Below, in pieces: positions 1,935 to 56,815 of a stretch of 64,000 bases of DNA (position 1 is the first letter of the stretch; every line of letters begins with the position of its first letter). The translations under genes and the position numbers were made by a program. Below the pieces are notes generated by a model that was not told the origin of the DNA, did not search any database, and saw only the letters and a program-made list of their open reading frames with translations. The DNA is from Anodontia alba (taxonomy: Eukaryota > Mollusca > Bivalvia > Lucinida > Lucinidae): NCBI GenBank assembly GCA_964016985.1, contig OZ024827.1, positions 82,163,835 through 82,227,834 on the forward strand, written 5' to 3'.

Positions 1935-4232
1935 CAGTGCTTTAAATGATTACCGTACGCGTTGGTGTAAACGAGAGCATGTTGAGTCTAATGCTTTAAA
2001 TAATTGGAAATTAAGGATATTTAAGATCATTGATGAACGTGTGTTATTTTACTATAATAACCTTGATTTTCTCCCTCCTATGCCTAAATTATCTTTTCGA
2101 TATTTGAAGCAAGGTATCCAAGAATTTCTTAGGAAGTAAATTTTGGCTCCAGCTGATAAAGCTGCTAATAATGTTGTTGTTGTGTGACGACTTTATTATA
2201 TCAATACTCTAATACAAGAACTTGGTAGTTCCAAAACATATGAACGGATTTCTACTATTGTTAATGCCCATTCTATCGATATGACTGCTAAAAAAGGTAA
2301 GAGAAAGTTTGCATCGAGTATTAAAGAAAACCAAGACAGACACCTCCTACGTTATATTGGTTACTTCATAAACGACCTTATAAAACACGTTTCATTGCTA
2401 ATTCTAGTTCATGTACGACTTCTGTTTTGTCCAAACTGCTAACTTCATGCCTTACTGCTGTTAAAAAACACTGGATTAGGTAATATGATACTGTTTACGA
2501 AAGGGATGGAATTAACTATTTTTGGTCAATTAAAAATTCCAATGATGTTCTCAATAAATTTAAATCTAAAAACTTTCAGGCTTCTACATTGTTTACATAT
2601 GCTTTTTCTACACTGTATACTACGTTACCTCATCATCTTATAAAAGATAAACTTATTGATTTATTTAACCGAACGTTTATTCGGGAGAATATCCCCTATA
2701 ATTGGCTTGCAACGAAGAATGTGCTTTTCTCACTTCTGCTGTATACAATAATCAGAATTTATGGTCGTGCCAAAAAGTCTGTGATTCCCTTGTTTATCTT
2801 TTGGATAATATGTTTTATTAAATTTGGAATTAAACTCTATAGGCAAACTACTGGAATTCCGATGGGAACTAATTGTGCTCCTCTTGTTGCAGATTTGTTT
2901 CTTTTTTGCTATGAGAGAGATTTCATGAAGTCTCTCTCACGTGAAAATCAGGCTGACATTATTGAGGCTTTCAATTCAACTTCAAGATACCTTGATGATA
3001 TATTAAATATTGACAATAATTACTTTGACCAAATCGTGGACCGCATATATACTACAGAACTCCAATTAAATAAAGCAAATTCTTCCTATACCGAGGCACC
3101 TTTTTTGGATTTGAATCTATGTGTATCTAATGGTACAGTTTCCACCAAAGTTTATGATAAACGGGACGATTTTGATTTTGATATAGTCAATTTCCCTTTT
3201 CTGGATGGCGATGTCCGCCGGCGTACCTCATATGAGGTATACATATCTCAACTTGATTCGCCAGAGTTTCTTCAAATCTTAGTGTCTTCAACTGCCGCAA
3301 TTAAGCCCTTACTGCCAAACTTTTTATTTTAACTTTCGTAAAGCGTTTTTGACATTTTATCGCAGACACAGTGCCTTGGTAGAAAACATATAGCGTCAGT
3401 CTGAAAACAGTTCTGCAACATGGTATATCGGAATCAGAATTTTACGGTGACTTAGTGCACAGATTTAGAAAAAGTAGGAAAATCTAACTTTTCAGAGCAA
3501 TTCAGAAAACTTATTAACCGTTATAAAAGAATAGGCTATAGCCTGAATATTATGCGGCAGACTGCATGCCTAGTTGTCAACCCAACTATTATTGACGGCT
3601 ATGCTTCACTCTTTAATTGCACGACGGCGGTTCGGGCCTCAGACTCAATGACGGCCTCTTCGTAAAACTTTAACCAGTGGGTTCGGGCTTGACAATATGT
3701 CTTTGGCTTGGCCCGCCGTGGTTCAACTATTGGTTTTCATTTACTCTGGCAAACAGTAGAATTAGCCATGAGTACTCGTATTTGTTTATCATAGTGATTA
3801 ATTTGATTTTTATGTTTCCGCTTTGATGCAATGACTGAGTTGGGAGCCTTTATGCGAACCGAAGTTTTATGCGTTATGTATTAGTTGCATCGGGACCCTG
3901 GGTGAAGTTGGCTAGCTGCAAAAGTGCTTCAAACACCTGGTCGTTTATGCTACTGAACATTCTAATGCGGTGGTCCAGGTGTTAGTCTTACTCTTTGTTG
4001 CTTTGTGGTTTATTCTACGAGGCGATTTGTGTTATATCTTATCTTCTGTCACTTTGTTCTTGTATTTTTCAGTACCTTTAGCATTGCCATTACCTCGCTA
4101 GGGGAAGAGAGAGTTAATCTTAGTGCTTTTCGTACGTTTGTTCGATTTGTGCTTTTATTTTTGGATTTGTCAGTTTCACTTCCTCTTGGTGTCTTGGAAG
4201 GGCAGCGGTTTGTGATTGTGGCGCTCCTGGGA
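1935..4232 (+). mobile_element. Penelope-like retroelement, family A copy A1
   Basis: This is the longest copy in the window. It begins inside the N-terminal region of the polyprotein (frame fragments reading WCKREHVESNALNNWKL), passes through the reverse transcriptase, a C-terminal region ending near 3660 (FNCTTAVRASDSMTASS in one frame), and the 3' tail. The final ~30 bp of the usual tail are missing. Frameshifts and stops before 2589 and after 3332 make it a pseudogene. Assignment to Penelope-like elements is from the RT motifs and remembered family resemblance. No GIY-YIG endonuclease is visible. Confidence 0.75.
2589..3332 (+). pseudogene. Reverse transcriptase core of copy A1
   Basis: An open stretch of 247 codons is the best preserved RT segment here. 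Motifs in order are FSTLYTTLPHHLI near residue 6 (palm aspartate region, where the usual aspartate of YDFSTLY is changed), TGIPMGTNCAPLVADLFLF near residue 87, and the catalytic box YLDDI near residue 134. A C-terminal part follows with KVYDKRDDFDFDIVNFPFLDG near 190. The full family ORF is far longer: coding similarity continues on both sides out of frame. It is expected to be inactive. Confidence 0.8.
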
Positions 4233-10439: not shown

Positions 10440-10661
10440 CTTATTTCTGCTCAAAAACATAGATTGTTGGTACTCGTATTTCTGCTCAAAAACATAGATT
10501 GTTGGTACTCGTTAGAACCGCCTCAATGAGGCGGTTCTAATGAATATCCACAGTCTCTGTTTGGAACAGAAATATGAAAAATATCAGAGTTTACATCTGA
10601 AAATTTTCATTTTTTGGTGGAAAAATCTTCAGTTTGTATGAACAGGAATGTTTTCGTAATG
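10440..10661 (+). mobile_element. H element, partial, with duplicated arm
   Basis: It starts in the left hairpin arm, which is present twice in tandem (TTTCTGCTCAAAAACATAG at 10443 and again at 10480). It then has the paired arm and a complete right end. The left ~170 bp are missing. Confidence 0.75.
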
Positions 10662-11874: not shown

Positions 11875-12118
11875 AGGCCCCAAGGTTATCAAACTTTTAT
11901 GCTCCATTCAGCTCAGCATAAAGTTTTCTCTGCTAATAAATATGAAAATGCCGAAAAACAGCTGGTATTTGCATATTCATAAGCCGTTACTATTTCATGC
12001 TCAGCTATGTTTAGCATGAAAGAATTTGCAATTGTACGTAATTTGAGATTTATTAGCAAGACAAATTTTATGCTCAATCGAGATGAGCATGAAAGTTTTT
12101 TTATAAGCTCAGGGCCAG
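11875..12118. mobile_element. P4 palindromic MITE
   Basis: The ends GGCCCCAAGGTTATCAAACT and TTTATAAGCTCAGGGCC are inverted. The interior contains repeated GCTCAGCATAAA / TTTCATGCTCAGC arms and AAATATGAAAATGCC. Better copies are at 51081-51330, 52604-52844 and 58451-58692. Confidence 0.75.
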
Positions 12119-12519
12119 ACTTCAACGGGTTAAGGTAACTGGATACACTTGGCTGTTCTTCTGCCATTCTTATAAGGGAGACAATATTTGTGACTTCCTG
12201 TTTGCTTTCCTGGGCTCCATGTTCCTTCTGAAAACAGGTACACTCCAAAAGGAAATAATTTGTCAATCAATCTGTCGTATATACTGCCTGATACCCTCGC
12301 GGACATTTCAGGCAGGTGCGCGCTGTCGAGCAAGACAAGGTAGAAAAGTACCTGAAATGAATGATAAAAGCAGGATAGTGCAGGGGATAAAAATGATAAG
12401 TTAAAATGGTGACGTGGAGTTTAAAATCAGGTTAAACTAGAACTTGTGTTTGTAAAACGATATGCCCCCAACTGTATGCTTTCCCTCAAACATGCATTGA
12501 CCGTAATACTTAACACAAA
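12119..12519. other. No recognised feature
   Basis: Small reading frames are present on both strands but none has recognisable protein content. Confidence 0.4.
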
Positions 12520-14150
12520 CAAATGGCTTTGTTCAAAAGTCGAAAAAAAAGTGACAAAAATAAATTGACGATATTACCAAAACCACATGCACATCTACAG
12601 ACCATATGACAAAAGAACCTACAAGCTGTGCACAGAAGGTACCCACGGTAATGCACTTTAATAGTATTTAGGTCCAAAATGGCAAAGTTCAAAAGTCGAA
12701 ATAAGTAACAAAACAAATAAATTGACAATAATGCCACTACCACATGCAATTCTACAGACCATGACAAAAGAGCCCGCATTTCAAATTGATCGGTTTAAAG
12801 TATATGATGAATGGTACACACAAGAAGCCCACCGTCTGTTGTCAAATGCTTGAGCCGTAAAAGGGTAATAACTCCGCAATGAAAAAAAAAGTAAGAGAAA
12901 AGTCCAGGGAGTGCCACAAACACAAACCGCAGTCCCCCCACGCCCCCACCCCAAGAGAAAGAGGAAACCGACAAATCTAAACAAGCACAAACCGAACAAA
13001 CGTACGAAAAGCACTAAGATTAGCTCCCTTCTCCCCAAGCGAGGCAACCGCAACACTAAAAGGACCGAAAAACATAAGAACAAAATGACACACGGGAAGA
13101 CACACAACAAATCGCCCCGTAGAATAAACCACAAAGCAACAAGGAGTAAGACCAACACCGGGACCACCGCCTTAGAACGGTCGGTAGAGCAAACCACCGG
13201 GGGAAAACCTCTACGGAAAAACGAAAAATACGCGTCAGTTTATTTTTCATGTTGATACTATATATAAAATTTCGGGATCCTAGCTCTAAGTGTTCATGAC
13301 GGTAATGAAAGCGTAACGAATGGAAGCACAGAAATAGCTAAGTTCAAAAGCTGAAAACCAAGTGACAAAAATCAAATTGACGTTAATGACAAAATCACGT
13401 GCACGTCTACAGACCAAGACAAAAAATCCTGCAAAGTTTCAAACTGATCGGTATTAAAGTGTAGGAGAAGTTGCGCACATAGTTAATAGTATTTCCGTCC
13501 CAGAAAATGGCTAAGTTCAAAAGTCGTAAAAAGTGACAAAAATTAAATTGACAATAATGCCAAAACCACATGCACATCTACAGACCATAACAAAAGGTCC
13601 TTTAAAGTTTCAAATTGATCGGTATAAAACTGTAGGTCGCGTTGCGCACACAATTTGCTCATGATAATGCACATAAATAACATTTAAGTCCCAAAAATAG
13701 CTAAGTTCAAAAGTCGAAAACTGTAACAAAAAGTAAACTGACCATAATGCCAAAACCACATGCACATCTTCAGACTATGACCAAAGAGCCTACAAAGTTT
13801 AAAACAGATCGGTATAAAATATGATGTCGAAAAAGAGGAATAACTCCGCAAGGAGAATCCCGTCGGAAAAAATTAAGGTCCGCTTATTTTCTATGTTGAT
13901 ACTTTATATAATTTTTTAGGATTCTAGCTCTAAGCATTACTGACCGAATTTAAAGCTAACCGATAGATGGACAGGAATGGCTAAGTTCAAAAGTCGTAAC
14001 ATGGGATAAAAGTCAGATTGACAATAATGCAAAAACCACGTATATCGACCATGACAAAAAAGGCCTGCAAAGTTTAAAATTGATCTGTGTAATGAAATGA
14101 AAAATGTTGCCTTTGGAAACAATGAACACATAACAGGTAGAAAATGGGAG
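12520..14150. repeat. Tandem array, ~170-bp unit
   Basis: Units carry AAGTTCAAAAGTCG (near 12534, 12688, 13341, 13511, 13703, 13982), CCACATGCACATCTACAGAC and CAAATTGATCGGT. A second block type (GATACTTTATATAATTT, then TAGCTCTAAGC) recurs near 13255, 13900 and 14740. A retroelement tail interrupts it at 12884-13205. Confidence 0.75.
12884..13205 (-). mobile_element. Family A tail inserted in tandem array
   Basis: Reverse-oriented family A 3' tail, about 320 bp, 5'-truncated. It begins (its 3' end) at AAAAGTAAGAGAAAAGTCC after AATAACTCCGCAATG, and ends near GAGCAAACCACCGG. The array resumes with AAAACCTCTACGGAAAAACG. Open frames of about 110-138 codons are present on both strands, as in the other tail copies. 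Confidence 0.8.
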
Positions 14151-14163
14151 TCGGTTCAATTCA

Positions 14164-14560
14164 TAAGCAGTAATGAAGTTTGCAACACTGCTCCACCCTC
14201 TAGCGTATACATTAGCTAGACTCCATTTTAAAAATTATCATAATGGGCCTAATGATACCAAAGGAAATGAAAATCTGCACTATGGTGAAGTATGGGGAGA
14301 CTTTTTACGGCCGCCACACGCCACTTACACCAGCTGCAACATGTTAACTTTGAAAACAAAGCACAAATTACAGATACAAAATAGCAGCCTCTGTTTTATT
14401 GGGACTCTTCATAAGCAATTATGAAGTTTGCAATACTGCTCAAGCCCTCTTGCGTATACATGAGCAGATCTCTATTTTCAAAAATACCACAATCGGCCCA
14501 ATGATCCCGAAGAAAATGAAAATACTCTGCACTATGTTGAAGCGTTCTAAGGCCGCCAAA
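14164..14560. repeat. Direct duplication, ~235-bp spacing
   Basis: Two copies of a ~150-bp block (14164-14330 and 14408-14560) share ATGAAGTTTGCAA, CCCTCTAGCG / CCCTCTTGCG, GGCCCAATGAT and ATGAAAAT-CTGCACTATG. Part of the same block is present at 23726-23835 and a trace near 26150-26185. Confidence 0.7.
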
Positions 14561-14608
14561 CGAATGCCTGTCGCAAAAGGAGAATAGCTCCGCAAGGAGA
14601 ACCGAGAC

Positions 14609-14700
14609 GAAAAAAAAAACAAAAAAAAAAAACAAACAAAACAAAAAAAAAAAAAAAAAAAAAAAAAAACCGAAAAAAAAAAAAAAAAAAAAAAAAAAAC
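14609..14700. repeat. A-rich low-complexity tract
   Basis: Long A runs interrupted by C or CG. This produces an apparent phenylalanine-rich reading frame on the minus strand, which is not a gene. Confidence 0.9.
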
Positions 14701-14704
14701 AACA

Positions 14705-15182
14705 TTAATATAGGTCCGCTTATGTTTCATGCTGAAGCTATATATAACATTACTGGAACCTTAGCTCTGAGCATTCCTGGCCGTATGCAAGTCTAACGGA
14801 GGGACAGCCGAACATACAGCTGTCGGACGGACAGGCCCAAAACAATATGTCCCCTTAACTTCTTCGAAGTTGGGGTCATAAAAACAACAATGTTAGAGCT
14901 TGCTAGCCGCGACCTTGAATACTTCAGAGTCTTGCAAGTTGACAACAGATTCTGGTAAAACATTCCGCTATACTATGGCAAGCTGAATAAAAATGAGCAC
15001 TTGTAATAATTCCTAGTTGTTGAGATCCGGTGAAAAGGCATTGATTGGCAGTTCCGCGACACTGTATGTGAAAGCTATAGTGTGGAAGATGTACTATCAC
15101 AAACCCATGGCCACTTCTAAAGAAGAAACATAATCACACATCTGCCAGTCTCTGCTTAAGGGTCCTCAAACCTAATAAGTGC
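14705..15182. other. End unit of the tandem family, then no recognised feature
   Basis: The first part (to about 14880) repeats the GCTATATATAAC / TAGCTCTGAGC block and ends in GGACGGACAGGC and CTTCGAAGTTGGGGTC. From 14880 to 15182 nothing was recognised. Confidence 0.4.
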
Positions 15183-16380
15183 GTCCAAAAAAGGTAAGAG
15201 AAAAGTCCAGGGAGTGCCACAATCACAAACCGCAGCCCTTCCCAGACCCTAAAAGGAAGAGGAAACCGACAAAACTAAACAAGCACAAACCGAACAAACG
15301 TACGAAAAGCACTAAGATTAGCTCTCTCTTCCCCAAGCAAGGTAATCGCAATACTAAAAGGACTGAAAAACACAAGAACAAAATGACACACGGAAAGACA
15401 TACAACAAATCGCCTCGTAGAATAAACCACAAAGCAAGAAAGAGTAAGACTAACACCGGGACCACCGCCTTAGAACGGTCGGTAGAGCAAACCACCGGGG
15501 GGGGGGGGGGGGGGCGGTTTAAAGCACTTTTACAGCTAGCTAACTTCACCCTGGGTCCCGATGCTACTCTTAATACAGAAATACATAAAAATTCGGTTCG
15601 CACAAAGGCTCCCAGCCCAGTCAATGCATCAAAGCGAAAACATAAAAATCAAGTCAATCACCATAATAAACAAAGACGAGCACCCATGGCCAACTCTACC
15701 GTATGCCAGAGTAAATGAAAACCAATAGTTGAACCACGACGGGCCAAGCCAAAGACACACCGCCAAGCCCCAACCCACTGGCCAAAGTCCTCTGAAGAGG
15801 CCGTCATTGAGTCCGAGGCCCGAACCGCCGTCGCGCAATCAAAGAGCGAAGCACAACCACCAACAAGACCGGGCCGACATCCAGGCACGCAGCTCGCCGC
15901 ACAACATCCGGGCCACAGCCAACTCCCCCATAACGGCCAACAAGCCCCCTGAACTGCTCCGAAAAGCTAGATTTACCTACAATTTTTCCAAATCTGTACA
16001 CCAAGTCACTGTAAAACTCGGGTTTCGATATACCTTGTTGCAGAAGCGTTTTCAGACTGACGCAATATTTCTCCAACAAGGCACTGGGTCTGCGACAAAA
16101 CCTCAAAAACGCCCGACGAAGTCTAAAATAACGACAGCTCTGCCTAAGAGGTTTGGCAGTAAGGGCCTTAACACGGCAGCCAAAGCCTCCAAGACCCGAA
16201 GAAGCCCCGGCGAATCCCACAAGTTGAGACACGCACACCTCACACGAGGCACGCCGGGGGACACCGCCACCCAGAAAAGGGAAACCGACTACATCAAAAT
16301 CAAAATCGTCCTGTTTATCACAAGTTTTGGTGGAAACTATACCATAAGACACACATAGACCCAAATCCAAAAAGGGCGCC
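15183..16380 (-). mobile_element. Family A copy A10, A-to-G hypermutated
   Basis: 5'-truncated family A copy: C-terminal half of the ORF (16380 down to about 15800) and the 3' tail (to 15183). A G run of about 18 lies at 15497-15514. Read on its own sense (minus) strand, the segment at about 15650-16350 differs from other copies mainly by A to G changes. In the protein this appears as N to G, D to G, Y to C and I to V, for example the expected FPFLDGD reads FPFLGGG. The distal tail (15183-15640) looks normal. Despite the changes, about 200 codons remain open at 15804-16409. Confidence 0.8.
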
Positions 16381-16452
16381 CCGGCATCGGAAGAACCTGT
16401 CCTATTCAATTGAACTGCGAAACAGTTCGGCGTGCAGACGCACTACTATAGA

Positions 16453-16722
16453 CTATGTGACCAGTGATGTGTGTGACCAAAACTGTGATGGTCCAACAAA
16501 CGCTTGGGTGGTTCGGTGGTTATCCTGAAAACAATAAGCGTTCCGTGATTTGGCAGAGACTATTGACACGGCGACCGTTCCGATAATAGCAACAAAAGAG
16601 CCAATAACGCCAAGTATTCCAATTGCAAGGGGTTGAATCACGAGACATGACGTGAGCCTACAAAATTTGAGATCGCCGCCATTTTGAATTTTGTCTCCAC
16701 TTCGAATTTTATTTCTATCCAT
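16453..16722 (-). CDS. Possible small membrane ORF, unknown
   Basis: An 89-codon frame beginning ATGGATAGAAAT, with a favourable A at -3. Residues about 30-55 (PLAIGILGVIGSFVAIIG and following) form one strong hydrophobic segment. There is no family assignment. It might be a first exon of an unrelated minus-strand gene or a chance frame. No clear donor site was found near its end. It lies just beyond retroelement copy A10 and shares no sequence with it. Confidence 0.2.
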   Translation of the reverse strand: MDRNKIRSGDKIQNGGDLKFCRLTSCLVIQPLAIGILGVIGSFVAIIGTVAVSIVSAKSRNAYCFQDNHRTTQAFVGPSQFWSHTSLVT

Positions 16723-17837
16723 TCTCCGTCTATTTACAAACCAAGCATGATTCTTTTAGTGCATAAGGTACTCTTTCATGTAGATTTTTAGATAACACAT
16801 AAACTTAACGCTCTTTTCATGTGATAATCTATAAAAGCTTCGACACAATAATGTGTTTGTTCGACCGGTTCGTTAATTGTTATTTTTAATGTTTTTTTTT
16901 CTGCTTTTCATAATATGTAGTCTCAAAAAAAACCCCAGAAAAACAAAACCAAAAAGAAACAAAGACAAAAACAAACAAACAGTCAAAACTCCTGAAACAG
17001 TAAAATTGATTTCAGGTAAGCGCACGGAAGTGTATTGTCGTTGTACCTGCCATCGGCAGACACTAGTTTTCGGTATTCGGAAAGCATGGCCCCCGCCAAT
17101 CCGGGCCCGCAAAATTGATGGGCTGCCTAAAGCCTTCATGCTAGTAACTGAGTAGTGCTATTTGCAAACTGAAAGTATAACAAACCCGCTATTCCCCAGC
17201 CGTGAGTTTCAATGAATGGTGCACTGGATTAGTTGATTAGTTGTTTATTTTTTTTTTTTCAGTTTGACTTTGTCATAATCCTTGTCTCTGATTCTTGTAT
17301 GGAGTTAACCAATAAAATAAGTAGATTGTCATGTTCGTGTTTTGTCTTTTCAATACATTTTATGGATTTGGCAAACAAATTGACTTAATTTGCTTTCGAA
17401 ATTATAACATTTCCTAGAATTACACATTGTCTGTATATAGATCAAGCTCAGGCTGTTACTAGTACAAAAAGAGATGACAAATTTAGTAATATGTCATTTA
17501 ATAGATATCGCCACAATACCTTGTATTTTACCAAACTTCTACCGCGGTATCACTATTATTGAGACGTTTTCAAGAAGACATTAACTTATTTTCCTAGCAA
17601 CAATACGTAACGACGTTATTTCCGGCCACGGCGTTTCATAACAGATATATGACAGTTAACTGATAAGCATTTCTGCTTTTAATCAGTTTTGAACATCAAG
17701 TTTATTGAATCGGAGGTGATTGCTTATTGCATAGATGAACTAGGACATGTGTCTTCGCAATGTAAAATTCCTAGAAATGTTGGTGTGATCGCAGACTACC
17801 ATATTTACCCTAAGTATTCAGAAATGATATAGCGTAA
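16723..17837. other. No recognised feature
   Basis: AT-rich with a T run at about 17247-17258. No supported gene or shared repeat was found. Minus-strand frames at 16873-17139 lack recognisable content. Confidence 0.4.
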
Positions 17838-18141
17838 CATTACAAAAATCCGCCTATTTAAATATAAAGAAAATTTCACTTCCAAAACTTGAAAATGTTC
17901 GGATAAAAAACTCTGATAATTTTCAAATTTCTGCTCAAAACATAGATTGTGGATATTCGTTAGAACCGCTTCGGCGAGGCGGTTCTAACGAGTACCCACA
18001 ATCTATGTTTTTGAGCAGAAATAAGAAAAATAATGTATACCCCGTAAATAAAAAAATAATGTATACCCCTTTAAACCCCAGTATTACTATACAAAAGTGG
18101 AGTTTAAGGGGGTCGAAATGATATAGGCATGTTTTTGTGAT
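17838..18141 (-). mobile_element. H element (hairpin MITE)
   Basis: A complete reverse-oriented copy. It has CATTACAAAAATCCGCC at its left, a hairpin core TTAGAACCGCTTCGGCGAGG centred near 17975, and an end in GGCATGTTTTTGTGATT. The block after the hairpin is slightly duplicated (AAATAATGTATACCCC twice). Confidence 0.85.
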
Positions 18142-30540: not shown

Positions 30541-31880
30541 ATTTCATGAAGTCTCTCTCACATGAAAAACAGGCTGCCATTACTACTTCAAGATACCTTG
30601 ATGATTTGTTAAATATTGACAATATTTACTTTGACCAAGTGGTGGACCGCATGTACTCCACTGAACCCCAGTTAAAGAAAGTCAATTCTTCCGGTACCAA
30701 GGCGACTTTTTTGGATTTGATCTACTCGTATGTTTATCGTATGGTACAGTTTCCACCAACATTTATGATAAATGGGACGATTCTGATTTTAAATAAAGTC
30801 AAATTCCCTTTTCTGGATGGCGATGTGCCCCAACCTACCCTATATGGGGTATACATATATCAGCTTAGACTCTCCAGAGCTTCTTCAAATCTTAATGACT
30901 TTAACTGCCGTTATAAAGCCCTTACTGCCAAACTTCTTAGGCAGGGCTACCCATTATTTTAAACTTCGTACGGCGTTTCCGAATTTTTATCGCGGACATA
31001 GTGCTTTGGTAGAAAAATATAAAATCAGTCTGAAAACACTTCTGCAACAAGGTATATCGGAACTAGAATTTTACGGTGACTTAGTGTACAGATTTAGAAG
31101 AAAATGTGGGAAAATATAACTTTTTAGAGCAATTCAGAAAATTAATTAACCATTATAAAAGAAATGGCTATAGCCTGGATATTGTTCGGCAGTCAGCATG
31201 CCTAATCATCAACCCAATCATGGTTGATGGGTATGCTTCACTCTTTAATTGCACGACAGGGGTTCGGGCCTCAGACTCAATGACGGCCTCTTCATAATTT
31301 TAACCAGTGGGTTGGGGCTTGACGATTTGTTTTTGGCTTGGCCCGCCGTGGTTCAACTGTTGGTTTTCATTTACTTTGTCACACATTATAATTAGCTATG
31401 AGTACTCGTCTTTGTTTATCATAGTGATTAATTTGACTTTTATGTTTTCGCTTTGATGCAATGTCTGAGCTGGGAGCCTTTATGCGAACCGAATTTTCAT
31501 GTATTTCTGTATTAAGGGTTGCATCGGGACCCATGGTGAAGTTGGCTGGCCGTAAAAATGCTTTAAACCCCCGGTGGTTTATTCTACTGACCGATCTAAG
31601 GCGGTGGGCCCGGTGTTAGTCTTTTTCTTTGTTGTTAGTAGCTTATTCTACAAGGCGATTTGTTTTATGTCTTACTATGTATTATATTATTCTTGCGTTT
31701 TTTTTTCAGTCCTTTAACATTGCGATTACCTCGCTAGCAGAAGAGAGAGCTAATCTTAGTTCTTTTCGTACGTTTGTTCGATTTGCTTTCGTTTGGTTTT
31801 GTCTGTTTCCTCTTCCTCTTGGTCTGGGAAGGGCTGCGGTTTGTAATTGTGGCTCTCTCTTGACTTTTCTCTTACTTGTT
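30541..31880 (+). mobile_element. Family A copy A3, nested in B2
   Basis: 5'-truncated plus-strand copy. It starts at GATTTCATGAAGTCTCTCTC (the RDFMKSLS codons just after GIPMG), retains YLDDLLNID, FPFLDGDV, LLQQGISELEFYGDLVYR and VRASDSMTASS with frameshifts. It ends at the usual terminus CTTTTCTCTTACTTG. It is a pseudogene and the catalytic half of the RT is missing. Confidence 0.8.
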
Positions 31881-31882
31881 TT

Positions 31883-33310
31883 TAAAGAAATTTAGCAGTT
31901 AACAATTTATTTCGAGTGTTGAAGTCACAAACATGACTATACACTCTGAGCCGAATAAGTTACGAGATATAAACACCGTAGGATGCTCGACGAGGACTAT
32001 CCCCATCCAAGTAAGGAAAATCTACGAACTCGAAATCAAAATCATCGCGTTTAATATATAACTTTTGTATGAAATAAACCTATCTAAAATAGATAAATGC
32101 AAGTCCAAAAACGGAGCTTTAGTTTTAGAAGAATTTGTTTTATTTAATCTCGGAAGGATAAATTTGACTTATCAAACCATCAGAATACTTATTATCAATA
32201 TTTAATAGTAGTTCAAATATCTAGACGTTGAGCTGAAAGATTTAATAGCTTGAGATTGCTTTTCATCAGAAAGAGATATCATGAAGTTTCTTTCATAACA
32301 GAAAAAGAAAAAATCAGCCACAAGCGGGACGCAATTCGTACCCATCGGAATACCAACAAATTTTCTAAATAGTTTAGTACCAAATCTTATATAAATATTG
32401 TCGTGTAGAAAAGTGAGAGCTTCACACATTTTCTGACATGACCATAATGTATACTTTTAATGCTTTTCGAAGTAGTTGCGGTCATGGTACCAAAGCCGTA
32501 ATCCAAAATCATTAATCCATAAACGAATGACGAATCAGAATGTTCAGACCAACAGACATGGACCCCAGAACAAAGGGTGTAATCAGGCGTCCGCGGATAG
32601 TAAGCATTACTTGGTAAGCAAGCTTCGCCCACCATGCCCATGGGCCTGAACGAAGGAAATATCGGTAGAAGCGTATGTCCGGGATTTGGGAAGTCTACTT
32701 ATGGCGCGTCACTGGCAAAAACATCAGAAACAATTCTGGAAACTGCCACATTGTAGGGATTGACTAGATCGAAAGTGAAAAAAAAAAAAAACAAACAAAC
32801 AAACAAAAAAAAAAAAAAAAAAAAAAAGAAAACAACAACAAAAAAAAAAACCCCACATTTTTTTCCGTTACATGCAACATTACAACCTTCCCTATTAACT
32901 GTCTATTCAATTTAATCATTAAGTCTTTTTCTTTCAAAAGATTATGCGGTAGTGTAGGGTAAAGCGAAGAAAAGTCATACGTAGACAGACTTGATGCACG
33001 AAAACTTCTGGATTTTAGTTTATTCAAAACTCCATTCGAATTTTTAATAGACAAATACAGACCCTTACCTGATCTTTCATAGACCTTGCCGCAATATTTA
33101 ATTACATGCTTTCTGATGGCAGTAAGACGAGGTAAACAACTTAGAAATTTCAGCAGTGATATAAGAGCTTGAATTTGCAATAAACCGTGCTTTGTGTGGA
33201 CTTTTGTGAAGTTTAGGCAAAAAATAAACGTAGGAAGCTTATCTTCACTTTCATTAACACTTACAGCAAACTCGGTGACTGCATGATAGACATGATTATT
33301 AACCACCTCT
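31883..33310 (-). mobile_element. Family B copy B2, 5' half
   Basis: On the minus strand, from 33306 downward: KLPTF (the equivalent of LPTLYWLPKLHK, frameshifted), LSTYDFSSLYPTLPHNLLKE near 33000, VGIPMGTNCVPLVADFFFFC near 32365, the STSRYL part of the catalytic box near 32225, and FPYLDGD near 32020. It is cut at 31883 after LTAKFL. An A-rich tract (32780-32850) lies within it. Confidence 0.75.
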
Positions 33311-33482: not shown

Positions 33483-33873
33483 ATAGAAGGAAAGGCAATG
33501 ATCAGGAGTCGATACAATTATCCCACACCTCCCATAAGAGACATCAAAGGGAAAGAAACACATACACGAAATAACTAGACCCTAATGGAAACATCACTAG
33601 CAGAAAACCAAACGGACAGTTACGTTCCCACAAAGTGGCCAAATGGCTATCCAAAACAAAAAGATGTAAGCGACACACACATTCAAAGACGAACTGTAAC
33701 AAAAATAAACCAAGACAGAAGAACCGCCGTGGAACGGTCAGTGAAAAGTATTTCATTTGCGGGGGGGGGGGGGGGGGGGGGGCGGAGGGGGGGCGGGGGG
33801 CGGAGGGGGGGGCGGGGGGCTTAAATCGATTTTACGTGGCCACAATCCTCGCCCGTACTTCTGCTGCGGTTCA
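33483..33873 (-). mobile_element. Family B tail (B3)
   Basis: The same tail text as B1 and B2 (GCAATGATCAGGAGTCGATA in plus orientation), 5'-truncated at about 33873. Its terminus at 33483 faces the upstream end of B2, about 170 bp away, in the same orientation. A G-rich tract (33763-33820) is expanded inside it. Confidence 0.7.
33763..33820. repeat. G-rich tract
   Basis: Runs of 6-20 G separated by single C or A. It is part of the tail and is expanded compared with the short G run at the same place in B1 (28363-28369). It could form G-quadruplex structures. The same tail position holds a G run in copy A10 (15497-15514). Confidence 0.85.
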
Positions 33874-33874
33874 T

Positions 33875-34512
33875 CGTTGATGGCTATGCTTCACTCTTTA
33901 ATTGCACGACGTCGGTTCGGGCCTCAGACTCAATGACGGCCTCTTCGTTAAACTTTAACCAGTGGGTTGGGACTTGACGATATGTCTTTGGCTTGGTCCG
34001 CCGTGGTTCAACTATTGGTTTTCATTTACTCGGGCATACAGCAGAATTAGCCATGAGTATTCGTCTTTGTTTATTATAGTGATTAATTTGATTTTTATGT
34101 TTTCGCTTTGATGCATTGACTACGTTGGGAGCTTTTAAGAGTAGCATCGGGACCCAGGGTGAAGTTAGCTAGCTGTAAGTGTGCTTTAGACCCCCCGGTG
34201 GTTTGCTCTGCCGGCCGTTCTGGGGCGGTGGTCCCGATGTTAGTCTTACTCTTTGTTGCTTTGTTGTTTATTCTACGAGGCGATTTGTTGTATGTCTTTC
34301 CGTGTGTCATTTTGTTCTTGTGTTTTTCAGTCCTTTTAGTATTGCGATTACCACGCTTGAGGAAGACAGAGCTAATCTTAGTGCTTGACGTACGTTTGTT
34401 CGGTTTGCACTTGTTTAGATTTGTCGGTTTCCTCTTCCTCTTGAGGTCTGGGAAGGGCTGCGGTTTGTGATTGTAGCACTCTCTGGACTTTTCTCTTACC
34501 TTTTTGGACACA
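33875..34512 (+). mobile_element. Family A copy A4, tail
   Basis: Starts abruptly at TTGATGGCTATGCTTCACTC (C-terminal ORF), then has the complete tail ending TGGACTTTTCTCTTACC at about 34510. It joins B3 head to head at 33874. The tail's plus-strand frame (34159-34470) and opposite-strand basic frame (34095-34511) are both open. Confidence 0.8.
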
Positions 34513-40431: not shown

Positions 40432-41245
40432 AAAGGTAAGAAAAAAGTGCAGAGAGAGCCACAATTATAAATCGCAACCCTTCCCAGACATCAAGAGGAA
40501 GAGGAAACGGACAAAGCCAAACAAGCGCCAATCAAACAAACATATGAAAAGCACTAAGATTAGCTCTCTCTTCCCTAAGCGAGGTGATCGGAATGCTAAA
40601 AGGAAAAACACAAGAACAAAATAACACAAGGCAAGACATAAAACAAATAGCCTCGTAGAATAAACGACAAATCAACAAAGAGTAAGACTAACACCGCGGC
40701 CACCGCCTTATAATGGTCAGTAGAATACATTACGAAAATACGCCTATTCAAATATACCGAAAATTTTACCACAAAAAAAAAAAAAAAAAAATCAGATAAA
40801 AAATTCTGATATTTTTCCTATTTCTGCCCAAAACATAGATTGTGGATACTCGTTAGAACCGCCTCGGCGAGGCGGTTCTAACGAGTACCCACAATCTATG
40901 TTTTCGAGCAAAAATAAGGAAAATAATGTATACCCCTGTAAACCCCAGTTTTACTTTATAAAAGTGGGGTTTAAGGGGGTCAAAATTATATAGGCGTGTT
41001 TTCGTGATAAAACCACAGGGGTTAAAGCCCTTTTACGGCCAGCCAACGTCACACTGGGTCCCGATGCAACCCTTAATACAGAGATACATACATTCGCATA
41101 AAGTCTCCCAACTTAGTCAATGCATCAAAGCAAAACTTAAAAATCAATATTCATGACTATGATGATCAAATGCGAGTACTCATGGCTTACTCTACTGTGT
41201 GACAGAGTAAATGCAAACAAACAGATGAACCACGGCGGAATAAGC
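40432..41245 (-). mobile_element. Family A tail copy A12, split by an H element
   Basis: Reverse tail starting AAAGGTAAGAAAAAAGTGC, through the tail to 40729, then an H element, then the tail continues (AAACCACAGGGGTTAAAGCC) to about 41245. The ORF end is lost. Confidence 0.8.
40730..41008 (-). mobile_element. H element inserted in copy A12
   Basis: A full element with the perfect core CGCCTCGGCGAGGCG at about 40860-40872. The interrupted tail reads GTCAGTAGAATA on the left and ATAAACCACAGG on the right. Intact copies read GTCAGTAGAGTAAACCACAG (48341), which suggests a 3-bp ATA target duplication. An A run (40771-40790) is expanded in the left flank. Confidence 0.9.
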
Positions 41246-41249
41246 CAAA

Positions 41250-42845
41250 CACAAATCGTCAAACTACCATTTAATAAAGCTAATTTTACTGATACCAAAG
41301 TACCTTGGTTTGAGTTGAATTTATTTAGGCTAATCAATAGTATAATGTCTTCAAGAGTGTTGATTTTGATTGCTGCTTTTAATTTTTTATAGTGTTATTC
41401 CTCGGTTTTCTTCGTATGGCTTTAAACATTTTTTTAGTTCCCCTGATTCTTGAGATTGTAATGATTCTAAATTTTGTTATCAACCAGCGGGTCATATTGT
41501 CACTGGTAACTTGAAGATTATAACTGATTCACGAATCCGTGTAGTTATTTCAAAAGATTCCCAGCCCACATTGATTTCAATAAATGTCAGGAAACAATTG
41601 CCAGTGCTTTAAATGATTATTGTAGGCGTTGGTGTAAACGAGAGCATGTTGAGTCTAATTCTTTAAATAATTGGAAATTAAAGATTTTTAAGATCATTGA
41701 TGAACGTGTGTTATTTTACTCTAATAACCTTGATCTTCTCCTTCCTAAGCCTAAATTATCTTTTCGATATTAGAAACAAGGTATCCAAGAATTTCATAGG
41801 AAGTATGTTTAGGCGCCAGCTGATAAAGCTGCTAATAATATTGTTGTTGTGTGACGACTTTATCATATCAATACTCTAAAACAAGAACTTGGTAGTACCA
41901 AAACATATGAACGGATTTCTACTGACGAGAGATCTATTGTCAATATCCATTCTATCGATATTACTGCTAAGTTTGCAGGGAGTATTAAAGAAAAGCAAGA
42001 CAGACTTCCTACGTTATATTGGTTACCGAAACTTCATAAACGACCTTATAAAGCACGTTTCGTTGCTAATTCCAGTTTTTGTACGACTACTGATTTGTCC
42101 AAACTGCTAACTCCATGCCTTACTGCTGTTAAAAAACATTGGATTAGATACTATGATACTGTTTAAGAAAGGGACGGAATTAACTATTTTTTGGTCAATT
42201 AAAAATTCTAATGATGTTCTCAATAAATTTAAATCTAAAAACTTTCAGGATTCTAAATTGTCTAGGGTTGGGGCTTGACGATACATCTTTGGCTTGGCCC
42301 GCCGTGGTTCAACTATTGGTTTTCATTTACTCTGGCATACAGTAGAATTAGCCATGAGTACTCTTCTTTGTTTATTATAGTGATTAATTTGATTTTTTAT
42401 GTTTTCGCTTTGTTGCATTGACTGAGCTGGGAGCATTTATGCGAACCGAATTTTTATGTATTTATGTATTAAGAGTAGCATCGGGACCCAGGGTGAAGTT
42501 AGCTAGCTGTAAAAGTGCTTTAAATCCCCCCGGTGGTTTGCTCTACCGACCGTTCTAAGGCGGTGGTCCCGGTGTTAGTCTTACTCCTTGTTGCTTTGTG
42601 GTTTATTCTACGAGGCGATTTGTTGTATGTCTTTCCGTGTGTCATTTTGTTCTTGTGTTTTTCAGTCCTTTTAGTATTGCAATTACCTCGCTTGGGGAAG
42701 AGTGAGCTAATCTTAGTGCTTTTCGTACGTTTGTTCGGTTTGTGCTTGTTTAGATTTGTCGGTTTCCTCTTCCTCTTAGGGTCTGGGAAGGGCTGCGGTT
42801 TGTGATTGTAGCACTCCCTGGACTTTTCTCTTACTTTTTTTTTTA
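41250..42845 (+). mobile_element. Family A copy A6, internally deleted
   Basis: Carries more of the 5' region than A1 (GGTAACTTGAAGATTATAAC at 41508, codons for GNLKIITDS), the N-terminal ORF, and ORF text up to about 42258 (codons for NKFKSKNFQ). It then jumps directly to the end of the ORF and a full tail ending at ~42840. About 1.4 kb including the whole RT palm is deleted. Several stops are present. Confidence 0.8.
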
Positions 42846-43222: not shown

Positions 43223-43422
43223 TATCCAGGAATTATACACACATTCATTGATAGTAAAATGAACTCGTTGAATACAAGTATAAGTAAAGCGTAAGAGATG
43301 TGAATCTTTAGGCTACAAACATTATCCTGAATTTATCAAGTTTAACAAAAAATATCTAATGCAAATTAAATATTGAATCAAAATGACCCCGAACCCACTC
43401 TGAATCCGCCCCTGAATATCAC

Positions 43423-43701
43423 CTGATGAGCACACTCGCATATATGCCACTTGAGTGTCATTGTCAACTGTATACACTTGATAGTCTCTGCTTGCCGATT
43501 CCGTGAAGTAGAAACACTGTTGTTTCTGTGAGTCAAACACAATCGCTGAACAAAACTCTGTCTCATTCATACAGTGCCTTCTGCAATTATCGGCCGTGAC
43601 TATAGGTTCATCTGAAGACTGTATCGGGAAAGAAACGAAAAGGCTCTTGACAGAATACCAGCTACTGACAGCTTTCCCTGCACACTGAAGGTTTACGGTT
43701 C
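43423..43701 (-). CDS. PAN/apple domain exon
   Basis: 279 nt, 93 codons with split ends, phase 1 to phase 1. The acceptor is TTTATTTTCTAG above 43701 and the donor is CATCAG/GTGATA below 43423. The translation has six cysteines: VNLQC near residue 6, then TADNCRRHC near 39, EFCSAIVFD near 49, QQQC-like KQQCFYF near 60 and the last in YMRVC near 90. The pattern CxxxC...C.A..F.......C.F is that of a PAN/apple module, which binds proteins or carbohydrates on extracellular molecules. It lies between the discoidin and CUB modules of the same gene. Confidence 0.8.
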
Positions 43702-44117
43702 CTAGAAAATAAACAAGTGTCAGCTTTTTCAAAAAATTAGCGGATCGTTTAGCTTCAACAATTTCATGTACGCTTATGACGCTTATACCGCACATGATGA
43801 CGTATGTAGCAAGAGTCACTGAACTAACCTAAATGACTCCAGTTGCTTTCCGAGTTTTGGTTCACTCCGAACTGTCAAATTTACCTCTGATGGTACGCAG
43901 CTAATAGGTGCCACAATTACTTTTACCCTGTGAGTTTTGCAACGTTTTGACTATAGCAGATGACAAGATGATAGCTAGTATTAGCTGATTCGACAATGCA
44001 ATGCTTTCATTTTAATGCTGGTAAAGATGCACTTTAGGCAGGTTCATTTCAGGGTTAAAGGGTGCCTGATTTGTTTTTTTGGAATTATCATTTAATGTAG
44101 AGGTTTGTGAGCCTAAT
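43702..44117. other. Intron, no recognised repeat
   Basis: Nothing recognised. Confidence 0.4.
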
Positions 44118-47006: not shown

Positions 47007-48055
47007 TTTAACATTTCAATTTACGTGTCCTGGGTCAAGTTCACAGACAGCGCCCAGACTATGTTGTATCTAAACAAACATGTATAAAGCATATCAAAAC
47101 ACGACCATGAAAGGTCTCTTATTGTATTTAAATTGTGAATTTTGGTTTTAATACAACCCAATTATTTACCCGACATAAGTTGCAATCAGTTAAGCGAGAC
47201 GTTTACAGTTATTCACAAACAAAAGAAAACTTTCCTTCGTTTTTGACAGTTTTCTTGGGAAGGTAGAGAATATCCACAATCTAATCTTAAGCTGACTTTT
47301 GGCACATCCAAAATAGCGGCCTTTGAAAATATTTTGTTGTATGTTTGTTCGTAACAAAAATATGGAAATGTTAACTGGTTTGATATTATCTATTCGATTA
47401 TTCGATTTCTTTGATTCTACATGAAATTAAGAATTATTGATATAATTATTCGATATAATTTATTTTAGCTTATATAAAAACTTGCAGAGAATAACGGCGC
47501 CTTTCTAATGTGAGGTCACATAAGATTTAATTTTTACAATAGCCTTTCAGAACTTGGGAAAACGTTTTGAAAAACTCTCATGTGTGATTTGATTCACTGA
47601 ACTCGGCCCTGATTTTAAGTTTACACAAATGGACAGAACCGAAACCATTTTATTGAAACGGGCTGACATGAACACTCATTTTAGGATGTAAACATTAGGA
47701 GCTCATTAAAATGATGATATGCTTCCTATTGTAGTTGCTTTAGAAACTACAGAGATGTTCAAATGGTTAACGGAGATTTTGCGACTTGCAAATTTGCAAT
47801 ATGTACAGTTTCGCTCCTCAAACAATTTCACGGAAAGAGGTGTGCATTTCTAGCACATCTCTAATCGCTTATTGGAAAGTCTTTTGAAAAGCCCAAGCTA
47901 TTTGCGAAAGCTTATACTTATTGGATAGTAATTTTGCGTTTGGGATCATTTCAGCTGATTTCGGCAAACTTATATACACCGCAGCGATAGTCAGAGAAGA
48001 GAAGTATCCGTATCAGTTTTGGCTCCTAAAGCCAAGAACGAGTGCTATTTAGTAA
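47007..48055. other. Intron, no recognised feature
   Basis: About 1 kb of AT-rich sequence without recognised repeats or coding text. Confidence 0.5.
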
Positions 48056-48059
48056 AACA

Positions 48060-49080
48060 AAAAGATAAGAAAAAAGTCCAGAGAGTACCACAATCACAAA
48101 CCGCAACCCTTCCCTGACAAAGAGGAAGAGGAAACCAATAAAACCAAACAAGCACAAGTCATACAACGTACGAAAGGACTAACATTAGCTCTCTCTTCCC
48201 CAAGAGAGATAATCGCAATGCTAAAATGACTACAAAACACAAGAACAAAATAACACAAGGTAAGGCATAAAACAAATCGTCTCGTAGAATAAACCACAAA
48301 GCAACAAAGAGTAAGACTAACACCGGGACCACCGATTAGAACGGTCAGTAGAGTAAACCACAGGGGGTTTAAAACACTTTTACAGCTAACCAACCACCCT
48401 GGGTCCCGATGCTACTCTTTATACAGAAATACATAAAAATTCGGTTTGCATAAAGGCTCCCAACTCGGTCAATGCATCAAAGCGAAAACATAAAAATCAA
48501 ATTAATCACTATTATAAACAAAGACGAGTATTCGTGGCTAATTCTTCTGTATGCCAGAGTAAATGAAAACCAATAGTTGAACCACGGCGTACAGAAATAT
48601 ATAAAACTTCGGTTCGCATAAAGGCTCCCAACTCGGTCAATGCATCAAAGCGAAAACATAAAAATCAAATTAATCACTATAATAAACTAAGACGAGTACT
48701 CATGGCTAATTCTACTGTATGTCAGAGTAAATGAAAACCAATAGTTGAACCACGACATATCGTTAACCCGCTGGTTAAAGTTTTGCGAGGAGGCCGTCAT
48801 TGAGTCTGAGGCCCAAACCGCCGTCGTGCAATAAAAGAGTGAAGCATAGCCATCAACAATGATTGGGTTGACAACCAGGCATGCAGCTGTCGCACAATAT
48901 CCAATCTATAGCCAATTATTTTATAACGGTTAATAAGTTTTTTTAATTGCTCCGAAAAGTTAGATTTTCCTACATTTTTTCTAAATCTGTACACAAAGTC
49001 ACCGTAAATTTCTGGTTTCAATATATCTTGTTGCTAAAGACGCTATATTTTATTCTACCAGGGTACTGTGTCTGCGATAA
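48060..49080 (-). mobile_element. Family A copy A11 with internal duplication
   Basis: Reverse tail (48060-48590), a second copy of its proximal ~170 bp (48594-48762, repeating AATTCGGTTTGCATAAAGGC-like text through CCAATAGTTGAACCACG), then the C-terminal ORF region (minus strand: EIYGDFVYRFRKNVGKSNF near 49010) to about 49075. It is a normal, non-hypermutated comparator for copy A10. Confidence 0.8.
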
Positions 49081-49189
49081 AATTTCAAAAGTAGTCTGCA
49101 CTGGAGCAAAAGCGCTCTATTTTAAAGTGAACACAATGAAAAGGTCCTGGGACCTTTTCAATTAGCTTTACCGCTTAGCATTCTGCGTC

Positions 49190-54830: not shown

Positions 54831-56815
54831 TCTTGTGAGCTGTCTGTCATGGTTTGTTTGCTTTTCCTCTTGGTGTCATAGGTATGCTATATTGTGAACT
54901 GTCTGTCATTGTTTGTTTGTTCTTCCTCTCGGTGTAATTGGTGTGCTAGATCGTGTGCTATCTGGCATGGTTTGTTTGCTCTTGGTGCCATAGGTGACAA
55001 TGGTTTGCTAGATTATGTGGTGTCTGTCAAGGTTTGTTTGCTTTCTTCTTGGTTGCATTGGTATGCTAGATTGTGTGCTGTCTGTCATTGTTTTTTTGTC
55101 TTTCATTTTGGTGTGATAGTATGCTAGATTATGTGGTTTGTCACGGTTTGTTTGCTTTTACTCCTGGTGTCTAAGGTATGCGCTAGATTGTGTGCTGTCT
55201 GTCATGTATTTTTTTTCTTTTTCCTTTTGCTCTTCCTCGGTGTCATTTCATTTATATGCTTGATAATGTGCTTTGTAGCATGGCATTTCTGCTGATTCTC
55301 CTGGTGTCATAAGTATGCTAGATTGTGTGCTGTATTTCATGGTTTGTTGCTTTTTCTCTTGGTTCCATCGTATGCTAGATTTTTTGCTGTCTGTCATGGT
55401 TTGATTGCTCTTCCTCTTGATTACATTGGTATGTTAGATTCTGTGCTATCTGTTATGGTTTGTTAGCAGCTGTCATATGCTAGTTTGTGTGCTGTCTGTG
55501 ACGGTTCGTTGCTCTAACTCTTGATGTTATAGGTAGGCCGGATTGTGTGCTGCCTACCATGGCTTGAGTGCTCTTCTTCTTGGTGGCAGTGGTATGCTAG
55601 ATTGTGTGTTATTGTGTGTGGGCTGTTATTGGTAATATAGATAGTGTGCTTTCTGTCACATGTTTTTTGCTCTTCATCTTGGTGTCATAGTAATGCTAGA
55701 TTGTTTGCTGTCTGTCATGAATTGGTCGCTCTTCCTGTTGATGTCTTTAGTATGCTTGATTTCGGGGCAATGTGGCATGGCTTTTCTGATGATCCTCCTG
55801 GTGTCATTTGTATGCTCCATTGTGTGCTATCTGTCATGGTTTGTTTGCTCTTCCTCTTGGTGTCATATGCTAGATTGTGTCCTGTCTGTGACGGTTTGCT
55901 TGTTCTACCTCTTGGTGTCATATGCTAGATTGTGTCCTGTCTGTGACGGTTTGCTTGTTCTACCTCTTGGTGTCATATGTAGGCTGGATTGTGTACTGCC
56001 TGCCATGGTTGTGACAATGGTTTGCTGGATTGTGTGCTGTGTTATGGTGTGTTTCGTCTTCTTATTATTGTTATTGGTGTGCTTCATTGTGTGATGCCTG
56101 GCATGGTTTATTTGCTTATTCTCGTCTTGTCATAGGTATGCTAGATTGTATGCTGTCAGTCATGGTTTGTTTGCTCTTATTCTTGGTGTCTATGGTCTGC
56201 TAGATTGTGTGCTTTCTGTCAAGATTTGTTTGCTCTTCCCGTTGGTGTCATTGTTTTGCTAGATTGTGAACTGTCTGCCATGGTTTGTTTGTGTTCTTCC
56301 TCTTGGTGCCATTGATATGCTAGATTGAGTGCTGTCTGTCATGGTGTGTTTGCTTCTCCGCTTGGTGTCGTTGGTATGCTAGATTGTGTGCTTTCTGTCA
56401 TCTTTTGTTTGTTTTTCCTCTTGGTGTCATTGGTATGCTAGATTGTGTGCTTTCATGCATGGTATGTTTAGTCTTTCTCTAGGTGTCATTGATACTCTGG
56501 ATTGTGCTGTCTGTCAGGGATTGTTTGCTCTTCATCTTGGTGTCATTGGTATAATAGACTGTGTGCTGTCTGTCATGGTTTATTTGCTGTTCCTGTTAGT
56601 GTCATAGGTATGCTAGATTGTGTGCCTTTTGCAGTGGTTTGTTTGTTTGTTCATTTGGTTTAATAGGTATACTGGATTGTGTGCTATCTGTCATGGTTTG
56701 TTGTTCTTCCTCTTGGTGTCATTGGTATGCTAGACGCTGTGCTGTCTGTCATTATTTGTTTGCTCTTTGTCTTGGTATCAGTGGTATTCTGTGTTCTGCT
56801 ATTGTTGCGTATTCT
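54830..56815 (+). repeat. 57-bp minisatellite, about 35 units
   Basis: Unit of the form TGTGCTGTCTGTCATGGTTT, GTTTGCTCTTCCTCTTGGTG, TCATTGGTATGCTAGAT. Units vary by substitutions and small indels. The unit corresponds to the sequence just after GGGGAAGAGA in family C tails (compare 39055-39140). Because 57 is a multiple of 3, long frames occur in several phases (for example 55660-56094) but encode only the repeat. Confidence 0.9.

Follow-up and report, generated by a model that had tools for sequence, protein, structure and literature searches.

Editing by ADAR is as a rule observed in RNA, without a heritable mark being left behind. Adenine-directed change via an RNA copy is known from diversity-generating retroelements (DGRs), where the reverse transcriptase turns A into any base. 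Here we describe a retroelement copy (F) on the minus strand at 15183–16412 of a 64,000-nucleotide stretch of the Anodontia alba genome (the window), which differs from its sister copies mainly by A>G changes on its sense strand, a condition that recurs across the host genome. The closest described systems each share part of this picture. ADAR-type A>G clusters occur in Rous-associated and avian leukosis viruses, where the changes reach almost half of all adenosines, and in human T-lymphotropic virus 2 (HTLV-2); these viruses are exogenous, whereas the present case concerns a resident retroelement with at least 32 edited genomic copies (PMC12925331). DNA editing of retrotransposons by APOBEC likewise leaves clustered, one-way changes by a host deaminase in integrated copies, but acts by deamination of the cDNA and yields G>A; in that retrotransposon test, A>G/T>C clusters were set against the DNA-editing clusters (PMC2873906). 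Hyperediting of metazoan RNA resembles our case in its dense A>G changes within repeat-derived duplexes and its depletion of upstream G, and differs in that it was observed in RNA and not in genomic DNA (PMC5625713). Mollusc ADAR1 has the same 5' preference, with a weak 3' preference, on malacoherpesvirus RNA, a viral substrate rather than an integrated retroelement (PMC6651903). In the literature searched, which included few subscription journals or preprints, we found no description of inherited retrotransposon copies with A>G hyperediting at this scale.

The direction of change in F is pronounced. Set against 38 other genome copies, with the majority base taken at each position, F shows 89 A>G changes beside 6 G>A, 6 C>T and 5 T>C. 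This reference consists of loci L009–L047 without L044 (L009, L015 and L016 being 99% alike) and spans window positions 15188–16349 only, so that 16350–16412 of F lies outside it. The A>G share exceeds that among the transitions of 48 unedited copies, a set that also omits L024 (binomial p = 7e-43). A leave-one-out majority over 11 other copies or pieces in the window itself gives 90 A>G, 9 G>A, 9 C>T and 7 T>C, with five extra A>G in the outermost 50 columns (16430–16386), where the alignment is poor, and the five most skewed of 271 window repeat pairs with at least eight transitions all include F. An APOBEC-type excess of G>A on the sense strand of F was not seen (6 G>A vs 89 A>G).

An initial annotation, made from the letters of the window, had counted about 17 A>G among some 25 differences in one part of F and about 15 of 17 in the same direction over the next 55 or so bases. 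Our recounts are close to these figures, with 17 A>G among 24 differences at 15841–15920 (against the copy at 3040–4232) and 15 among 18 at 15921–15975 (against 48590–49110). The same annotation took F for the derived copy, and rightly so, because the majority base of the 38 other copies at these positions is A; the consensus thus does not carry G as the ancestral state. It also described the distal tail as unaffected from 15640 outwards. The tail is indeed free of changes (0 of 58 adenines, vs 89 of 193 in the edited part; p = 2e-13 with a breakpoint placed post hoc at the last edit), but the boundary has to be moved, as edits reach 15603.

The same direction is visible at the protein level. 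At 57 positions conserved in 80% or more of its homologues, with Y, N, D and K among the residues lost, F carries a different residue; as had been claimed, the residues are struck in the matching direction, since 40 of the departures can be made by A>G alone, compared with 6 by G>A, 3 by T>C and 1 by C>T. A search with the reading frame of F returned 691 proteins, and none but F itself exceeded 70% identity among the 120 listed, which leaves no close subfamily with the same changes among those listed. The collection came to 262 proteins, 166 of them with at least eight departures; in five (F, P0144, P0176, P0230 and P0149) at least 60% of these were explained by A>G, whereas the other transitions (G>A, C>T and T>C) reached that share in none. 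The four companions of F were obtained by the search with F and hence are not an unbiased sample. One of them, P0144, is encoded with 100% identity in the same genome (locus L048). The sequence YLDD in L053 corresponds to CLGG in L073; YxDD we take to be the catalytic motif of reverse transcriptases. To judge by the sequences, the changes in edited copies strike residues that look functional.

The initial annotation considered only one copy to be edited, a view that had to be abandoned. Within the host assembly (1.86 Gb, 317 contigs) F has 46 matches, of which 40 candidates were scored, and we searched in addition with a pattern that demands A>G at three positions within two conserved codons. 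This gave 140 matches with up to two mismatches: 15 exact (including F), 18 with one and 107 with two. The reversed control pattern had no matches in the host genome, and a mirror pattern of three T>C changes, applied at one site, had no exact and no one-mismatch matches, all of its 91 matches having two. Besides F, 29 pattern loci were scored (three one-mismatch matches had no locus, and the 107 two-mismatch matches were left out), and each keeps at least 25 A>G changes outside the pattern. Together with L044, L048 and F they make up at least 32 edited copies, each reaching a threshold of at least 30 A>G and ranging from 31 to 180, the most heavily changed being L069 with 180 of 253 adenines. 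Copies not selected by the pattern include L044, where 61 of 67 differences are A>G, and L024, with 15 of 19, which falls below the threshold; L049–L059, selected by similarity to P0144, have 0–5 A>G each. Pooled, the 32 edited copies contain 3547 A>G, 217 G>A, 229 C>T and 115 T>C, compared with 128, 199, 181 and 92, respectively, in the 48 unedited copies. Repeat pairs outside the element, between the window and genome loci, showed no such skew (0 of 91 at p<1e-3). Roughly 0.5–1% of copies are edited at the counted site, as 33 edited matches (15 exact) stand against 3,113 exact genome copies of the unedited 23-mer at this one position.

The sequence context of the changes points to an ADAR. 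The edited fraction of adenines depends on the 5' base (T 0.60, A 0.545, C 0.48, G 0.37; p = 1.4e-5 at the level of sites), and a 5' G is disfavoured, with an odds ratio below 1, in 31 of the 32 copies, 21 of them at p<0.05 (Fisher's test); in F itself, 11 such sites are edited and 27 are not (p = 0.01). The 3' base is nearly flat, with G slightly highest. This order of T>A>C>G agrees with published ADAR preferences, including that of mollusc ADAR1, which acts on adenosines with T, A or C upstream, weakly on GA, and with no strong downstream preference (PMC6651903); depletion of upstream G is reported across Metazoa, together with a 3' A in invertebrates (PMC5625713). Together with the one-way clusters and the derived state, the context supports the earlier proposal of ADAR-type editing. 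The adenosine deaminase domain PF02137 (A_deamin) is present at four places in the host genome, one of which consists of two stop-free pieces jointly covering the whole profile.

We therefore favour, with high confidence, a process in which ADAR repeatedly hyperedited sense transcripts of the element that were paired with antisense RNA, and these transcripts were then reverse-transcribed and integrated. The abundant element would be transcribed, and part of some sense transcripts would pair with antisense RNA of the same family. Host ADAR would convert adenosine to inosine, up to most of the adenosines in the duplexed part, and the element's reverse transcriptase would read inosine as guanosine. 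Integration of the cDNA would leave one dense, strand-specific and patchy A>G copy per event, and such copies are presumably dead. Because dense change appears only as A>G on the sense strand, editing probably struck the sense RNA and preceded the synthesis of the first strand.

The patches have sharp edges that vary by copy, and dense patches adjoin long unedited runs. Almost all edits of L087 and L072 are confined to the first 300 columns, whereas 57 of the 61 edits of L044 fall at columns 236–544; L084 has separate edited patches, and L073 is edited for about 1.4 kb upstream. Among 403 adenine-rich bins of 60 bases, 33 have at least 90% of their adenines changed and 65 have less than 10%, which suggests that the duplexes were long but partial.

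Adjacent inverted copies, envisaged in the initial annotation as the source of these duplexes, are not supported: in flanks of roughly 0.4–1.5 kb per side, inverted pieces of 80 bases or more occur at 5 of the 31 edited loci other than F (L069, L071, L075, L087 and L088) and overlap the edited part at 3 (L071, L075 and L088). None of the five pieces has an excess of A>G or T>C, and unedited loci likewise carry inverted pieces. Self-folding was rejected, as it showed no correlation with the edit frequency of sites (rho 0.018). For these reasons, antisense RNA acting in trans seems the likeliest partner. Abundant foldback repeats with inverted arms are also present in the window (17927–18032, 40810–40925 and 10442–10583) and are possibly another source of duplex RNA.

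Several points weigh against editing of the RNA before integration. No duplex partner was found among the inverted pieces in the flanks of the 31 edited loci, and both enzyme and substrate are deduced from genomic DNA. Of the 32 copies, 29 were selected by a pattern that demands edited sites, and L048 was selected for its edited protein. Matches with two mismatches were alike in number for the A>G and T>C patterns (107 vs 91), as expected of single ordinary changes. A>G aside, edited copies are more diverged than unedited ones (medians of 2.6% vs 1.7%). Some of the A_deamin pieces contain stops; PF02137 presumably also covers ADAD and ADAT1, so that the host genes are not proven editors. A 5' G is disfavoured yet not excluded (0.37 vs 0.60), and the 3' A preference given for invertebrates in PMC5625713 is not seen.

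A further such point is that a reverse transcriptase which misinserts C opposite A in stretches, in the manner of DGRs or via biased nucleotide pools, would likewise produce, while the cDNA is made, patchy changes restricted to adenines of the sense strand. We nevertheless consider this very unlikely. Unlike in DGRs, A>T (127) and A>C (43) are rare in the pooled edited copies beside the 3547 A>G. The order of 5' neighbours matches the published ADAR order. In L064, moreover, only 3 of about 360 adenines are changed upstream of an onset near −250, after which the dense patch follows.

Even less credible is ordinary lineage divergence, with the G states marking a subfamily, or being ancestral while the sisters decayed, for example by CpG loss. 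Some of the same sites are indeed G in other copies, and A>G clusters do occur in copies other than F, but with their own sets of sites and their own patch edges. Only 1 of 496 pairs of edited copies is near-identical in its sites (L064 and L082, 4 kb apart); the next-closest pair is 34% discordant and the median is 64%. Since edited sites differ among copies, this one pair apart, the edited copies are no subfamily, and the 32 copies represent about 31 events. The majority A over the 38 genome copies and the loss of conserved residues speak against this explanation as well, and decay would be strand-symmetric, yet T>C remains low. Finally, it is extremely unlikely that ADAR acted on DNA (an RNA:DNA hybrid or the genome) and not on RNA before reverse transcription, for although PMC12925331 mentions ADAR acting, in model substrates, on the DNA of such hybrids, editing of the first cDNA strand would read as T>C in the sense orientation, and the T>C pattern had no dense match at the one site searched.

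Editing of RNA followed by reverse transcription would have lasting consequences. Excluding A>G, median divergence is 2.6% in edited copies and 0.65% in L044, and because these values are low the editing events are probably not ancient. Edited, reverse-transcribed transcripts appear to be frozen as genomic copies and so to form a lasting record, in which single molecules reveal, across evolutionary time, the stretches that were duplexed, the density of their editing and the preferred neighbours. We lean slightly towards the wider view that the genome is a large heritable archive of germline ADAR acting on a live retroelement, with about 0.5–1% of its copies, at the counted site, hyperedited before integration, and that editing serves as a mutational barrier. 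If so, editing of sense–antisense duplexes would be the A>G counterpart of APOBEC restriction, datable and mappable per molecule, and it could be tested whether ADAR restricts germline retroelements via the edits themselves.

The features of the element in the window are collected in Table 1. Judged by sequence, the family is of the reverse-transcriptase type and abundant: its tail includes a 30-base stretch that recurs without mismatch 13,504 times across the host assembly, and the Pfam domain RVT_1 scores above cut-off in the homologue P0096, the window's own reverse-transcriptase frame (2589–3332) being below it. It resembles a Penelope-like element. No GIY-YIG endonuclease was among the Pfam hits of the scanned frames, and no hammerhead ribozyme matched in Rfam at gathering score in the window, or at E<=1 in 12000–17000. 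A target-site duplication of F longer than 5 bases was not found in the flanks tried. Viral contigs contained 12 stretches matching a pattern, with no relative among them, and a sequence search of the PDB gave only weak matches, mostly VP4, which we put down to chance.

Table 1. Copies and parts of the retroelement in the window (RT, reverse transcriptase)
Feature	Position	Strand	Basis
Focal copy F: 5'-truncated 3' part of RT element	15183..16412	-	blastn to sister copies
A>G hyperedited stretch of F, 89/193 majority-A sites up to last edit	15603..16321	-	
Unedited 3' tail of F, 0/58 majority-A sites	15187..15602	-	
Open frame of F, 201 aa	15804..16409	-	
Unedited sister copy; RT frame 2589-3332 overlaps its start	3040..4232	+	
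Unedited sister copy	30660..31886	+	
Unedited tail, 92% identity to F tail	42262..42845	+	
Unedited sister copy, 168-base piece duplicated	48055..49110	-	
Tail-only copy, 11/34 adenines to G	12884..13203	-	
Short A>G cluster in 3' half (weak case), 9/105 adenines	33871..34512	+	

Besides F, two window copies seem to be edited to a smaller extent. The tail-only copy has 13 A>G, 3 G>A, 2 T>C and 1 C>T relative to the unedited tail at 42262–42845, and the weak case has 9 A>G vs 5 G>A, 4 C>T and 4 T>C. Small A>G clusters in tails at 952–1118 of the window (with 6 G>A as well) and at reference columns 992–1082 of L024 may represent weaker editing events. A run of about 19 G (C in the sense of the element) at 15499–15517 lies within the part of F without edits, at a place where the majority of sisters carry only few C. 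In the short copy at 41587–42845 a 5' part (like 1921–2595) seems to be fused directly to the 3' tail, resembling a non-autonomous deletion derivative. Elsewhere in the window, a minus-strand frame at 43322–43819 has a PAN domain (PF00024), and 54833–56790 is a degenerate satellite with a period of about 59 bases, the plus strand of which is strongly T-rich and A-poor.
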